NCBI GenBank assembly: GCA_903930515.1
Contig: CAIYYW010000112.1
Span: 1 to 5,844 of the forward strand
Source: an uncultured delta proteobacterium
GTDB taxonomy: Bacteria; RBG-13-61-14; DRUE01
Direction: 5' to 3'
DNA length: 5,844 bases
Shown here piece by piece: positions 538-5,707 of the stretch. Under the pieces are notes generated by a model. The model was not told the origin of the DNA. It was given only the letters and a program-made list of their open reading frames with translations, and made no database searches. The translations under genes and the position numbers were made by a program. Numbering within the stretch: position 1 is the first letter of the stretch; each line of letters opens with the position of its first letter.

Positions 538-567
538 TTGAACTTCCAAGAGAAATAGTGATATGAT
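538..567 (+). promoter_or_regulatory. Candidate sigma70-type promoter overlapping the AAA ATPase start
   Basis: TTGAAC (538-543) is followed after 18 nt by TATGAT (562-567). The predicted transcript start, about 7 nt after the hexamer, is position 574 or 575, exactly at the second in-frame ATG (575) of the AAA gene. If the promoter is real, the ATG at 563 is not transcribed and the message is leaderless from 575. The call rests on consensus match and spacing alone. Confidence 0.42.
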
Positions 568-2101
568 CAAGGCGATGAAGGAGCTGGAGCAAGAACTGAA
601 ATTATTGATTCAATCCGGGCATCACCTGATTTATCTCTTGAGCTTTGAAGAGGACCGGGCCCAGGCGCTGTTGGAGAAGCTGGCGCCGGGATTCTCGTCG
701 CGGGTTTCCAGCTGGTCCATCGCCCGCGGGATTGAACACGCCGGCGCCGGCGCGCAACCCGAGCCGAACTCCGCTTTAGCCGGGGTGGTCAAGGAAAAGG
801 ACCCGACCTGGTTTATTTTATTTGATTTTCATCCCTATCTGGAAGACCCCTACCTGGTGCGGGCCTTGCGCGAGTTGTATCCGGTGCTGGTTCAGCGGAA
901 ACAGTTCATCTTTATCGTCGCGCCGGTCCTGCGGATTCCGCTGGAATTGGAAAAGGAGATCGTGACTTTGGAGCTTCCGCTCCCGGAGGCCGCGGATTTG
1001 AGCCGGATTCTGGAGGGAGTGATCGCCGGGCTGGAAAAGAGCCGGAAACAGCCGGTCAAGCTGGAGCCGTCGCTGCAGGAGAAAATGGTCCGGGCCGGCC
1101 TGGGCCTGACCCAGCGCGAGGCGCAACGGGTATTTCTCCGGGCTTTGATTGAGCATCCGGAATTCCGGGAAGTGAATTTGGACGCGATCCTTTTCCAGAA
1201 AAAACAGATCATCCGCCAGCAAAACCTGCTGGAATTTTACCAGGTGAGCGAACACCTGGAAGAAGTGGGAGGGCTGGACCTGTTGAAAGGATGGCTCAAG
1301 AGCCGGAGCAAGGCCTTCAGCGAGGACGCGAGGAAATACGGTTTGCCCGCGCCCCGGGGATTGCTTTTGCTGGGAATCCAGGGCTGCGGGAAAAGCCTGT
1401 GCGCCAAAGCCGTGTCCAACCTCTGGAAGCTGCCCCTGCTCCGCTTTGACACCAGCCTGATCCTCGGATCCTACCAGGCGCCTCCGGAAGTGAACATCCG
1501 CCGGGCCATGCAACTGGCTGAATCCATCTCGCCCTGCGTGCTCTGGATAGACGAGATTGAAAAAGGGTTCAGCGCCCAACTGGTTTCCGGAAAAGAAGCC
1601 AGCGGAGCGGTCGCGCGCGCGTTCGCGGGTTTCCTGGTCTGGCTCCAGGAGCGACGGAAAGCGGTTTATGTCATCGCCACGGCCAATTCCATCACCGAGC
1701 TTCCGCCCGAGTTGGTCCGGAAGGGAAGGTTTGACGAGATCTTCTTCGTGGACCTGCCCAAGGTTCACGAGCGGGAGGAAATCTTCGCGATCCATTTGAC
1801 CAAGCGCGGGAGAGACCCGATAAATTTCCAGTTGAAAACCCTGGCGGAAAACAGCGAGGGGTTCAGCGGATCGGAAATTGAGCAGAGCATCATCTCCGCG
1901 ATGTATCAGGCCTTCACCGAGGGCAGGGAACTCAACAGCCCGGACATTATCAAAGCCCTTTCCGAGACCGTACCCCTGAGCCAGACCATGGAGGAGCGGG
2001 TGGAAGAACTCCGAACCTGGGCCAAAGACCGCGCCCGGCCGGCATCTCTGGACACCAAGCTGAGTGACCTGCTCTCCTTTGGACCCGGAGATAAAAAATG
2101 A
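563..2101 (+). CDS. Ycf46-like AAA+ ATPase
   Basis: This 512-residue protein has the two-part layout of the Ycf46 family. The N-terminal region (about 1-230) opens with a helix and 'HHLIYLLSFEEDRAQALL', resembling a degenerate P-loop domain. A complete AAA module follows: Walker A GIQGCGKS at 271-278 (K277), Walker B CVLWIDE at 325-331 (D330, E331), sensor-1 Asn N375 in IATAN, arginine-finger candidates R386 and R389 in RKGRFDEIF, and the GFSGSEIE helix at 433-440. These residues predict a competent hexameric ATPase. In cyanobacteria Ycf46 is linked to inorganic-carbon and photosynthesis responses; that role cannot be assumed here, and the substrate is unknown. The ATG at 563 has only a weak AAGAGA upstream at about 9-10 nt. 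The in-frame ATG at 575 (product 508 aa) is a serious alternative because a promoter-like hexamer lies 7 nt before it. The stop overlaps the cupin start. Confidence 0.9.
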   Translation: MIKAMKELEQELKLLIQSGHHLIYLLSFEEDRAQALLEKLAPGFSSRVSSWSIARGIEHAGAGAQPEPNSALAGVVKEKDPTWFILFDFHPYLEDPYLVRALRELYPVLVQRKQFIFIVAPVLRIPLELEKEIVTLELPLPEAADLSRILEGVIAGLEKSRKQPVKLEPSLQEKMVRAGLGLTQREAQRVFLRALIEHPEFREVNLDAILFQKKQIIRQQNLLEFYQVSEHLEEVGGLDLLKGWLKSRSKAFSEDARKYGLPAPRGLLLLGIQGCGKSLCAKAVSNLWKLPLLRFDTSLILGSYQAPPEVNIRRAMQLAESISPCVLWIDEIEKGFSAQLVSGKEASGAVARAFAGFLVWLQERRKAVYVIATANSITELPPELVRKGRFDEIFFVDLPKVHEREEIFAIHLTKRGRDPINFQLKTLAENSEGFSGSEIEQSIISAMYQAFTEGRELNSPDIIKALSETVPLSQTMEERVEELRTWAKDRARPASLDTKLSDLLSFGPGDKK

Positions 2102-2436
2102 AACTGAGGTTTCGGCTGGATGATAAAAAACCCCTGGTAATGGCCAAAGGCATCAACGGCCTCCCGATCGGGCTGGAAAAGGCTATGATCAATATCGTGG
2201 AACTGGAGCCGGATTCGGTTATCCCCGTTCACAGCCATCCCGAGGAACAAATCTCTTTGATCATTTCCGGCGAATTGGAATTTGAAATGGGGGATGACAA
2301 ATTCAGGCTCGGCCCCGGAGAAGTTTTATTGATCCCGGCCAATCTCAAGCATGGGGCCAAGTCCCTGAAGAAAACTTTGGCCTATGACTGCTTCTCCCCG
2401 CCCCGATGGGATTACCTGGAAAAGATCAGGAAATAA
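2098..2436 (+). CDS. Small single-domain cupin, probable metal-binding
   Basis: A 112-residue protein consisting of one cupin barrel. Motif 1 is H45-S-H47-PEE-Q51-x6-G58, with Gln in place of the canonical Glu; this H.HP.EQ variant is common among small cupins related to KdgF. Motif 2 is GPGEVLLIPANLKHGA with H85. H45, H47, Q51 and H85 are the expected metal ligands. The C-terminal 'DCFSPPRWDYL' is also a familiar ending in this subfamily. Possible roles include ring-opening or isomerisation of a sugar-derived compound, or ligand sensing; the sequence does not choose between them. The start is supported by GGAG about 8 nt upstream. The ATGA overlap with the AAA stop indicates translational coupling. 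Length is normal for the family. Confidence 0.88.
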   Translation: MKLRFRLDDKKPLVMAKGINGLPIGLEKAMINIVELEPDSVIPVHSHPEEQISLIISGELEFEMGDDKFRLGPGEVLLIPANLKHGAKSLKKTLAYDCFSPPRWDYLEKIRK

Positions 2437-2439
2437 TAT
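2434..2439 (+). promoter_or_regulatory. Possible internal -10 hexamer before the first phosphatase gene
   Basis: TAATAT overlaps the cupin stop codon and lies exactly 7 nt before the ATG at 2447. No convincing -35 is visible at 16-18 nt. It is listed because the spacing repeats that seen at 562-567 and 3264-3269. On its own it would not be called. Confidence 0.2.
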
Positions 2440-2446
2440 TTTCCCG

Positions 2447-3103
2447 ATGCCTAAAAAAGTCAGCAAAAAAATCATCATCGCCGCCATCCTGACCGTTGCC
2501 CTGTTTGCGCTCGGGCTGGGTGGATATTATGGCTGGCGGAACCCGACCCGGCGCAGCAATCCGATTAATTTCAGCGTGGTCGTCCCGGACAAGCTTTACC
2601 GGAGCGGTCAGCCCCGGGCGGATGATCTCAGGCGGATGGCAAAGGAGTACGGCATTAAGACCGTTGTTTGCATGAGCGCGGATGGCGATGAGGGATGGGG
2701 TGTGAGAAAAGCCGCGCAGGAATTGGGGATCAAGGTGGTTGGGATCAAAATGAGCGAGACCTTGATTCCCGGGCCGGAACAGTCAAGTTTGGTCTTGAAG
2801 CTGATTACCGGGAGGCCGGTTAAATATCGGGATTATGAGAGGATGATCCAGGAATGGCCCGGGCCCGCGGACGACCCGGTTTCTTTTCCCGGCCCGGTTT
2901 TGCTTCATTGCTATAAAGGCAAGGACCGGACCGGCTATATGATTGCCTTGTACCGGATTTGCCTTCAAGGCTGGCCGGTGGAAAAGGCCGGGAAGGAAAT
3001 GCGCGAACACTATCATCGGCAATGGATCTGGACCACGCCCCAATTCTTGAAAGCGGCCAGGGAAATCAAGCCCGCCCAATCTTGCCCCTCAATCATCCCC
3101 TAA
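2447..3103 (+). CDS. Membrane-anchored dual-specificity/tyrosine phosphatase-like protein, copy 1
   Basis: The chosen start gives 218 residues. A longer in-frame ATG at 2384 lies inside the cupin gene and would bury the membrane segment, so it is rejected. A lysine-rich N-terminus (MPKKVSKK) precedes one hydrophobic segment at about residues 9-29. This implies a signal anchor with the catalytic part probably outside the cytoplasm, or an uncleaved signal peptide. The family N-terminal motif LYRSGQP is at 50-56. The phosphate-binding loop is HCYKGKDRT at 154-162, with nucleophile C155 and R161. The general-acid Asp usual about 30 residues before the Cys is not obvious. An insert YERMIQEWPGPADDPV (130-145) sits between the core helix and the P-loop and is shared with copy 2. 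The C-terminus ends in CPSIIP (C213). The substrate could be phosphotyrosine, phospholipid or another phosphoester. Only a weak AGG lies upstream, at an unfavourable distance of about 15 nt. Confidence 0.82.
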   Translation: MPKKVSKKIIIAAILTVALFALGLGGYYGWRNPTRRSNPINFSVVVPDKLYRSGQPRADDLRRMAKEYGIKTVVCMSADGDEGWGVRKAAQELGIKVVGIKMSETLIPGPEQSSLVLKLITGRPVKYRDYERMIQEWPGPADDPVSFPGPVLLHCYKGKDRTGYMIALYRICLQGWPVEKAGKEMREHYHRQWIWTTPQFLKAAREIKPAQSCPSIIP

Positions 3104-3112
3104 GAATTTCCA

Positions 3113-3244
3113 TCACCGGCAAAAATTTTTCAAACCAGGAATGCGCAAAATACGCCCTCTTTCGTCTTCGGACCTTTGATCGGTGGCGGCCGCATTTAGT
3201 CCCGCTTTAAGGCGGGATCCGGGGTTTGCGACCCTTGCCGGTGA
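3113..3244. repeat. Ends of a 10-bp perfect inverted repeat enclosing 112 bp
   Basis: TCACCGGCAA at 3113-3122 is the exact reverse complement of TTGCCGGTGA at 3235-3244. The right arm overlaps the proposed -35 element (3241-3246) of the next promoter. The arms could be operator half-sites, the base of a long RNA fold, or ends of a miniature element. No clear target-site duplication flanks them. A chance match in a gap this short is uncommon but possible. Confidence 0.35.
3199..3218. other. GC-rich hairpin, possible REP-like palindrome or weak terminator
   Basis: GTCCCGC and GCGGGAT pair as a 7-bp stem (outermost pair G-U) around a TTTAAG loop. No T-run follows on the + strand, so a canonical intrinsic terminator is not supported. 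Short, symmetric palindromes of this type in gaps are often dispersed repeats, but no second copy lies in the window. Confidence 0.4.
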
Positions 3245-3269
3245 AATCGCGACAAACGGATGCTATAAT
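3241..3269 (+). promoter_or_regulatory. Extended -10 promoter for the phosphatase 2 / nadB unit
   Basis: TGCTATAAT (3261-3269) is a perfect -10 hexamer with the extended TG element. GTGAAA (3241-3246) matches the -35 consensus at four of six positions with a 17-nt spacer. The predicted transcript start is 3276 or 3277, coinciding with the A of the ATG at 3277, so the message would be leaderless. The strong -10 makes this the best promoter in the window. Confidence 0.65.
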
Positions 3270-3276
3270 TTATTCA

Positions 3277-3936
3277 ATGAAGCCAAAGACCAAGAAGGCT
3301 CTGGAGATTTTTTTCATCCTGCTGATGGGAATCGGCGCGGTTGACCTGGGATTATGGGTGTTCCACCGGGGATGGCTGTTGAATTTCGGGGAAGTGATTC
3401 CGGGGTATCTTTATAGGAGCGGCGAGTTCCATTCCGGGGATTTGAACAGTTTGGTGAAGAAATACGGGATCAAGACCATTATCTGCCTGAAGGGCAAAGA
3501 AAACCGTGAGGTTGAGGAGCAGGCGAAAAAGCTGGGATTGAACCTGGTCAGTGTGCGGTTGCACGCGGAGCGGCCTCCCGGCCCGGAAACCCTCTCGCTC
3601 CTGATGAAAATCCTTTCCGACAAAAGCTTTGACAAAAAAGATTACAACTGGCTGATCGAGGAATGGGTCGGGCCGGAGCAAGACCCGGTCAGGCTTCCCC
3701 CGCCCTACCTGGTCCATTGCCAGATGGGCGCGGACCGGACCGGGTATTTGATCGCGGTTTACCGGATTTGTTTTCAAGGTTGGAGCGGGAAATCCGCGCG
3801 GATGGAAATGCTCAGATACTATCATTTCCCGCCCCGGTTTCCGCGGTTGTGGGAGGACCTGAGAAAACTTGACCCGGATCAATTCTGTCCCGCGATCAAT
3901 CCGGAATACCATCCGGTTTCCCGCGGGAATGGTTGA
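3277..3936 (+). CDS. Membrane-anchored dual-specificity/tyrosine phosphatase-like protein, copy 2
   Basis: This 219-residue protein is a clear paralogue of the one at 2447-3103. A basic start (MKPKTKK) leads into a hydrophobic segment at about 8-29, followed by LYRSGEF, then the P-loop HCQMGADRT at 147-155 with nucleophile C148 and R154. The insert YNWLIEEWVGPEQDPV and the C-terminal CPAINP (C204) match copy 1. As in copy 1, no conserved general-acid Asp is apparent. An in-frame ATG at 3226 exists, but it adds a polar leader before the membrane segment and lies upstream of the -10 box, so 3277 is preferred. There is no Shine-Dalgarno sequence before 3277, consistent with leaderless translation. 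The stop is 10 nt before the preferred nadB start, so the two are likely co-transcribed. Substrate and cellular role are unknown. Confidence 0.82.
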   Translation: MKPKTKKALEIFFILLMGIGAVDLGLWVFHRGWLLNFGEVIPGYLYRSGEFHSGDLNSLVKKYGIKTIICLKGKENREVEEQAKKLGLNLVSVRLHAERPPGPETLSLLMKILSDKSFDKKDYNWLIEEWVGPEQDPVRLPPPYLVHCQMGADRTGYLIAVYRICFQGWSGKSARMEMLRYYHFPPRFPRLWEDLRKLDPDQFCPAINPEYHPVSRGNG

Positions 3937-3946: not shown

Positions 3947-5587
3947 TTGGATCAGGAACTGATTGAAACCGACCTGCTGGTGATCGGCTCGGGCGTGGCC
4001 GGATTGTTCTTCGCGCTCAAGAGCCAGGGGTTGGGCAAGATTCTGGTGGTGAGCAAGCGCGAGCTTTGGGAATCCGCCAGCTATTACGCGCAGGGCGGAG
4101 TGGCCAGCGTGGTTTCCGACCAGGATTCCTTTGAGTCGCATATCCAGGACACGCTCTCCGCGGGAGCCGGGTTGTGCCGGCCTGGGATCGTGGAGATGGT
4201 GGTGAAGAGCGGCCCGGAGCGGATCCAGGAATTGATCCGGCTGGGAGTAAAATTTTCCACCCGGAACCAGGACCAGCGGGAATTATTTGAAAACTTCCCC
4301 CATAGCGATTTTGATCTGGCCCGAGAAGGCGCGCACAGCCGTCCGCGCATCCTCCATTCGCAGGACGCCACGGGCAAGGAGTTGGAGGGGGTTTTGCTCC
4401 GGAATTGCCAGAAATCATCCTCAATCCATTTTTGGGAATTCCATCAGGCCATTGATCTGATCACCAGCGAGAAGCTGGGCGAACCCGGGCCCAACCGCGT
4501 CCTGGGCGCATACGCCCTAGACCTCAAGACCGGCGCGATCAAGACCATCTCGGCCCGCGCCGTGATCCTGGCCGCGGGAGGGGCGGGCAAGGTTTTCCTT
4601 TATACCTCCAACCCGGACCTGGCCACCGGGGACGGCATCGCCATGGCCTATCGGGCCGGAGCCGAGATCGCCAACCTGGAATTCTTCCAGTTCCATCCCA
4701 CCTGCCTGTATCACCCGGAGGCCAAATCCTTCCTGATTTCAGAGGCGGTTCGCGGGGAAGGCGCCTTGCTCCGGACGGTCTCCGGCGAGCGTTTTATGCC
4801 CAAGTATCATCATTTGGCCGAATTGGCCCCGCGGGATGTGGTTGCCCGGGCGATTGACCAGGAGATGAAAAATTCGGGCGCGGACTATGTGCTTCTGGAC
4901 ATCACCCATCAGCCCGCGCATTTCATCCGGGAACGCTTCCCGAACATTTACAAGACCCTCAAGCAATACGGGTTCGACCTGACCAAAGACCCGATCCCGG
5001 TGGTGCCGGCGGCTCATTATATCTGCGGCGGAATCCAGAGCGACGAGAACGCCGGGACCAGCCTGGAGGGATTGTTCGCCATCGGCGAAAACGCCTGCAC
5101 CGGTCTCCACGGCGCCAACCGGCTCGCGTCCAATTCCCTTCTGGAGGCCCTGGTGTTCGCGGAACGCGCCAGCCGGTCCGCGGCAAAATATTTGGCCGAA
5201 AAAAAACCGGGACTAAACATTCCGCTCTGGGAAACGGGGAAAGCGGACAAGCTGGTGGAGCCGATGGTGATCAAGCATAACTGGCTGGAAATCAGAAGGA
5301 CTACCTGGAACTATATCGGGATCGTGAGAAGCGACCAATGGCTGAGCCAGGCCCGGCGCCGGATGGATTTGATCCAGGAAGAAATCAGGCAGTATTACTG
5401 GAACTACCTGGTCACCGGCGGCCTGGTGGAGTTAAGGAATATCGCGATTATGGCCGACCTGATCGCCAGGTGCGCCATTTACCGCGAGGAAAGCCGGGGG
5501 GCGCATTACAACCTGAACCATCCCGAGCCGAACCCGGAATGGGCGAGAGACACGGTTTTTCAAAAAGATTCCGGGTTCCTGAAATAA
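3947..5587 (+). CDS. nadB: L-aspartate oxidase
   Basis: This FAD flavoprotein oxidises L-aspartate to iminoaspartate, which NadA condenses with dihydroxyacetone phosphate to quinolinate in de novo NAD synthesis. From TTG 3947 the product is 546 residues, close to the 540 of E. coli NadB. The dinucleotide-binding motif GSGVAG is at 14-19, followed by YAQGGVASV and the HSRPRILHSQDATG stretch. The active-site positions are FHPT H250, S265-E266 before RGEG, R296, H357 in HYICGGI and R392 in GLHGANRLASNS. All five sit six residues beyond the E. coli positions H244, T259-E260, R290, H351 and R386, supporting orthology. The IRRTTWNYIGIVR C-terminal helix region is intact. NadA and NadC are not in the window. 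An ATG at 3929 (552 aa) overlaps the upstream stop and is the alternative start; the strong AAGGAGG favours TTG. The two genes probably form one operon. Confidence 0.95.
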   Translation: MDQELIETDLLVIGSGVAGLFFALKSQGLGKILVVSKRELWESASYYAQGGVASVVSDQDSFESHIQDTLSAGAGLCRPGIVEMVVKSGPERIQELIRLGVKFSTRNQDQRELFENFPHSDFDLAREGAHSRPRILHSQDATGKELEGVLLRNCQKSSSIHFWEFHQAIDLITSEKLGEPGPNRVLGAYALDLKTGAIKTISARAVILAAGGAGKVFLYTSNPDLATGDGIAMAYRAGAEIANLEFFQFHPTCLYHPEAKSFLISEAVRGEGALLRTVSGERFMPKYHHLAELAPRDVVARAIDQEMKNSGADYVLLDITHQPAHFIRERFPNIYKTLKQYGFDLTKDPIPVVPAAHYICGGIQSDENAGTSLEGLFAIGENACTGLHGANRLASNSLLEALVFAERASRSAAKYLAEKKPGLNIPLWETGKADKLVEPMVIKHNWLEIRRTTWNYIGIVRSDQWLSQARRRMDLIQEEIRQYYWNYLVTGGLVELRNIAIMADLIARCAIYREESRGAHYNLNHPEPNPEWARDTVFQKDSGFLK

Positions 5588-5707
5588 TTCCAAAAAAAAT
5601 ACAGGCCCTTCCGTCTATTAGTTTAAGGGTGGGGTGTCAAGGCTGAAAGCTTGCAGTAATAGCTAAAAGAGAAAGCCGCCCTGTCCTCCAAGAAAGGTGG
5701 GTGGAAA
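5588..5707 (+). ncRNA. Candidate structured 5' leader upstream of the last gene
   Basis: These 120 non-coding bases show nested pairing. AGGGTGG (5626-5632) can pair with CCGCCCT (5676-5682) using one G-U pair. Inside lies a small hairpin, CAAG-g-CT (5638-5644) with AGCTTG (5648-5653), closed by a GAA loop. The CCGCCC strand can instead pair with GGGTGG (5699-5704), between the ribosome binding site and the ATG at 5708. CCTCC (5685-5689) can face GGTGG (5696-5700) across one U-U mismatch. This resembles a switchable leader. It matches no riboswitch class I recognise. No clear promoter or nadB terminator is seen. Confidence 0.3.

Follow-up and report, generated by a model that had tools for sequence, protein, structure and literature searches.

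The window, that is, the whole stretch of 5,844 nucleotides analysed here, is a complete contig, one of 401 in an assembly of 3.65 Mb (GC content of the genome 54%). It was compared with a set of 60 genomes, its own included, in which the lineage is represented by three: the window's own genome, G001 from its genus and G002 from its order. The other genomes share only the domain with it. The forward strand carries an AAA ATPase gene (PF00004, 575–2101), a cupin gene (PF07883, 2098–2436) which overlaps it at ATGA, two DSP/tyrosine phosphatase-like genes (gene 1, 2447–3103; gene 2, 3277–3936) and, downstream of the latter, a gene for a nadB-like FAD oxidoreductase (3947–5587), the probable second gene of its transcript. 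The order AAA-cupin-phosphatase is kept in G001 (L045), phosphatase gene 1 being the third gene of this conserved operon. Among named genomes, relatives of the nadB-like protein reach no more than 63% identity and are spread across many phyla.

Phosphatase genes 1 and 2 are 40% identical and each has a hydrophobic N-terminal stretch. They are adjacent here; in G001 they lie on separate contigs, one in the AAA-cupin operon and one before nadB. Between them the window has an inverted repeat, CCCGCTTTAAGGCGGG (3199–3216), which is not followed by a T run and is possibly terminator-like or a repeat element. The GC-rich spacer between nadB and ATG 5708 (5588–5707) folds into a long hairpin which is not better than those of shuffles (z -0.08), and neither an Rfam match nor a copy in the relatives was found for it. 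An Rfam search of the window as a whole gave nothing credible.

A first-pass annotation of this DNA had pointed to -10-like hexamers before three start codons and had read all three genes as leaderless. The motifs are all present, each at a gap of 7 nt: TATGAT (562–567) before ATG 575, TAATAT (2434–2439) before ATG 2447, and TGCTATAAT (3261–3269) before ATG 3277. It was also right that the cupin and nadB genes possess a Shine-Dalgarno sequence (SD; GGAG before 2098 and AAGGAGG before TTG 3947, respectively) and that none is well placed at 2447 or 3277.

Upstream of phosphatase gene 2, the extended -10 element TGCTATAAT is accompanied by a -35-like hexamer, GTGAAA (3241–3246; 4/6 matches), at a spacer of 17 nt. 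A promoter scan of positions 3080–3300 returned this GTGAAA-N17-TATAAT as the sole sigma-70-like site (1 found, 0.1 expected), and the coding score peaks at 3277. The G001 orthologue (57% protein identity) has the same CGGATGCTATAAT-N7-ATG, while the 7-nt spacer itself has changed (TTATTCA versus TCAGGAA). We regard the gene at 3277, judged from its sequence, as very probably leaderless and as the strongest case of the three. A distant relative of this gene in G002 (38% identity; L043:1356–1407) starts at TTG, with AAGGA as a possible SD, and carries TGCTATTCT some 40 nt upstream of that codon; it looks leadered, which suggests that the mode may switch over longer times.

The hexamer in front of the AAA ATPase gene is likewise the only sigma-70-like site in its region (scan of 440–600; 1 found, 0.1 expected). 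TGA directly precedes TATGAT, giving an extended -10, TGATATGAT (559–567), a feature which the first-pass annotation had missed; the -35-like hexamer is TTGAAC (538–543; 4/6 matches to TTGACA) at an 18-nt spacer. A perfect -35 is found in neither this promoter nor that at 3264. The G001 orthologue (77% identity) reads TGGTAAGAT-N6-ATG. Its sole usable ATG aligns with ATG 575; it has no ATG at the position of 563, and an in-frame TAA lies four codons upstream of its start. The latter two facts place the start of the gene at 575 and not at 563, and support the earlier proposal that the protein begins four residues after the first ATG. ATG 563 sits within the TATGAT box, and a gene caller preferring the first ATG would pick it. 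With the promoter and its conservation considered together, the gene at 575 is very probably leaderless as well.

The frequency of such starts was assessed in 855 kb of the window's own genome (about 23%), comprising 607 gene starts with upstream sequence. Genes were called with a simple hexamer coding model which is blind to promoters, and because of its simplicity some of the called starts are wrong. TANNNT occurs 23, 26 and 23 times upstream of in-frame ATGs at gaps of 6, 7 and 8 nt, versus a background of about 11; out-of-frame ATGs of the same regions have no TANNNT excess. Among 329 genes lacking an SD, TATAAT-like hexamers number 9, 10, 11 and 7 at gaps of 6, 7, 8 and 9 nt, with about 2 per position elsewhere. 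These 37 cases compare with none among 278 genes with an SD, an association which arises partly by construction since SD and hexamer compete for the same bases. The first-pass annotation had expected that distances from TAnnnT to ATG, set against shuffled upstream regions, would peak sharply at 7 nt in SD-less genes. The enrichment in those genes is there, but the peak is 6–9 nt wide. The exact match of the three 7-nt gaps in the window is partly luck, the gap genome-wide being 6–9 nt.

The signal belongs to genes at the head of transcripts. When SD-less genes that are first in a transcript or at a contig edge are taken together, 34 of 227 have a TATAAT-like hexamer 6–9 nt upstream; 1000 shuffles of each gene's own upstream bases gave 3.7 (sd 1.9, max 11). 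For first-in-transcript genes by themselves the count is 27 of 193 (background 4.2), and 26 of these 27 start with ATG versus 97 of all 193. Operon-internal starts exhibit no clear enrichment (3/102 versus 1.2). The share of all starts with the hexamer is about 5%, which is a lower bound. On this evidence predicted leaderless-type promoters are a real class of gene start in the window's genome. In G002 the enrichment is weak, with 5 first genes versus 1.1 and 15 TANNNT at gaps of 6–9 nt versus about 8.

Do these hexamers belong to promoters? When the 37 starts, which were picked solely by the -10 and its gap, are aligned on the -10, T, T and G are found at 23, 22 and 21 nt upstream in 28, 30 and 18 of them, and this TT(G) corresponds to a -35 at a spacing of 16–17 nt. 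Matches of at least 4/6 to TTGACA number 9 and 11 at spacers of 16 and 17 nt and mostly 0–2 at others (5 at spacer 23). TG stands directly 5' of the -10 in 12/37 starts. A comparison of -35 quality between hexamers at gaps of 6–9 nt and those at other gaps gave no clear difference (19/37 versus 36/107, p 0.08), probably since the other gaps include the genuine promoters of leadered genes, and we took the cross-spacer comparison inside one set to be the fairer test. A -35 at the right spacing is not predicted by AT-richness, which argues that the hexamers are putative sigma-70 promoters.

Conservation was judged against a single congeneric genome, G001. Twenty hexamer genes were searched there with joined N-termini and 19 orthologues were recovered, 14 of which keep TANNNT 6–10 nt before the aligned start. 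No hexamer was found in G001 for any of 14 controls lacking one in their own genome (Fisher p about 1e-5), a set which omits the AAA gene, entered with a wrong start and in fact carrying the hexamer. Of the five remaining orthologues, L234 retains TATAAT at a gap of 7 nt from an ATG further downstream, L240 shows TATCAT at a gap of 12 nt, the starts of two are uncertain and the last is without a hexamer. Across 16 aligned pairs the -35 and the ends of the -10 persist, conservation is among the lowest at the six positions preceding the ATG (2–7/16 identical), and the gap from hexamer to ATG shifts by 1–2 nt between orthologues. Together with the spacing of the -35, this conservation marks the hexamer as what appears to be a real promoter element. 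The hexamer genes include argC, aroC, ispD, gpsA, surE and recG; for recG the hexamer was not found in the G001 orthologue. We lean towards the view that leaderless initiation is a stable, gene-specific and inherited mode of housekeeping genes (argC, aroC, ispD, gpsA, surE and others), built from complete sigma-70 promoters in which the -35 and -10 are conserved and the bases adjacent to the start drift.

Taken as a whole, the sequence evidence leads us to propose, with good confidence, that 562 and 3264 are leaderless-type sigma-70 promoters of a design common in this genome and that the hexamer at 2434 is there by chance. At 2434 the scan found neither a -35 nor any promoter-like match. The weak -10 look-alike begins with the TAA stop codon of the cupin gene, and the nearest hexamer in the G001 orthologue, TATTAT, lies 5 nt before the ATG, so that the register is not kept. 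No conserved -10 with promoter context was found for this gene; TAATAT is probably a chance occurrence inside the operon, and gene 2447 is unlikely to be leaderless. Its translation probably comes about by reinitiation after termination at the cupin stop, or else from the AGGA farther off at 2428–2431, and the gene would then have no promoter of its own. The short distance from stop to start (10 nt here, 12 nt in G001) and the preserved order of the operon agree with this, while the AGGA is a poor fit, being 15 nt from ATG 2447 and not kept in the relative.

The proposal of the first-pass annotation, that all three sites are leaderless promoters, is well supported at 3277 and 575 by promoter and conservation. 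Its extension to 2447 draws on the identical 7-nt gap, the want of a good SD and the AT-rich TATTAT near the ATG of the orthologue, but is improbable for a start 10 nt past a stop codon in a conserved operon, with the stop lying in the hexamer itself, no -35, a different register in G001 and no clear enrichment of operon-internal starts genome-wide. AT-rich regions of low structure are common before SD-less starts, and a last reading would have these starts leadered but SD-less, the AT-rich stretch keeping the start unstructured and the hexamers being an effect of composition. This accords with the somewhat frequent ATAATT and TTATAA at the same positions, though both overlap TATAAT, and is most improbable given that shuffling each gene's own bases yields 3.7 cases and not 34, that TATAAT ranks top among all 20 permutations there, that the -35 is present at the correct spacing, and that the hexamer is kept while the bases between it and the ATG diverge.

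Under the proposal of two leaderless-type promoters, the hexamers at 562 and 3264 would be the extended (TGn) -10 elements of ordinary sigma-70-type promoters, with transcription presumably starting at the A of the start codon, give or take about two bases. The AAA mRNA (from 575) and the phosphatase 2 mRNA (from 3277) would then be leaderless, presumably with no further promoter upstream, although additional leadered transcripts from weaker upstream promoters may occur. Translation would follow an SD-independent route in which the ribosome engages the 5'-terminal AUG. Such a design may serve roughly a tenth of first-in-transcript genes, alongside normal SD genes.

Gene starts of this kind are known already; the lineage is new to them, and a literature search on leaderless genes among candidate phyla returned no publication. 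A sparsely sampled lineage would join those with leaderless genes. The signal also offers a sequence-only means of fixing start codons in this lineage, as with the AAA protein, now shortened by 4 residues. Leaderless-type starts are kept in most of the sampled orthologues across about 15–55% protein divergence, which bears on whether such starts are remnants or are maintained.

As had been suggested for these sites, the arrangement is familiar from leaderless transcripts of other bacteria (PMC3160421, PMC12340547, PMC3898074). In a survey of 953 bacterial genomes, Zheng et al. 2011 (PMC3160421) detected TA-like signals some 10 bp ahead of the start codon in 207 and interpreted these as marking leaderless genes. 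The geometry is the same, SD genes occur alongside, and leaderless starts are tied to operon-proximal genes in both. Medium-GC genomes in that survey have the full TAtaaT, as does this one at 54% GC. Their survey covered the sequenced RefSeq phyla of 2010, whereas ours concerns a lineage of three genomes whose promoters also have a -35. In Deinococcus-Thermus (PMC12340547) a -10 motif a few bases 5' of the ORF is likewise the promoter of leaderless mRNAs; it was tested by mutation, and expression is higher when a -35 lies at 17 nt. There the motif is TANNNT and is carried by about 30% of ORFs, whereas here it is TATAAT with a -35 and TGn, at about 5% of all starts as a lower bound. Leaderless transcripts were also mapped in Mycobacterium tuberculosis (Cortes et al. 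2013; PMC3898074), where many transcripts begin at start codons and TANNNT is centred 7–12 bp upstream of transcript starts. Unlike the present genome, in which the -35 is visible and TGn occurs in about a third of the aligned starts, that organism has no conserved -35 and TGn in 7%. Compared with these systems, what is slightly unusual here is the complete promoter (-35, TGn and TATAAT) combined with clear conservation between two genomes.
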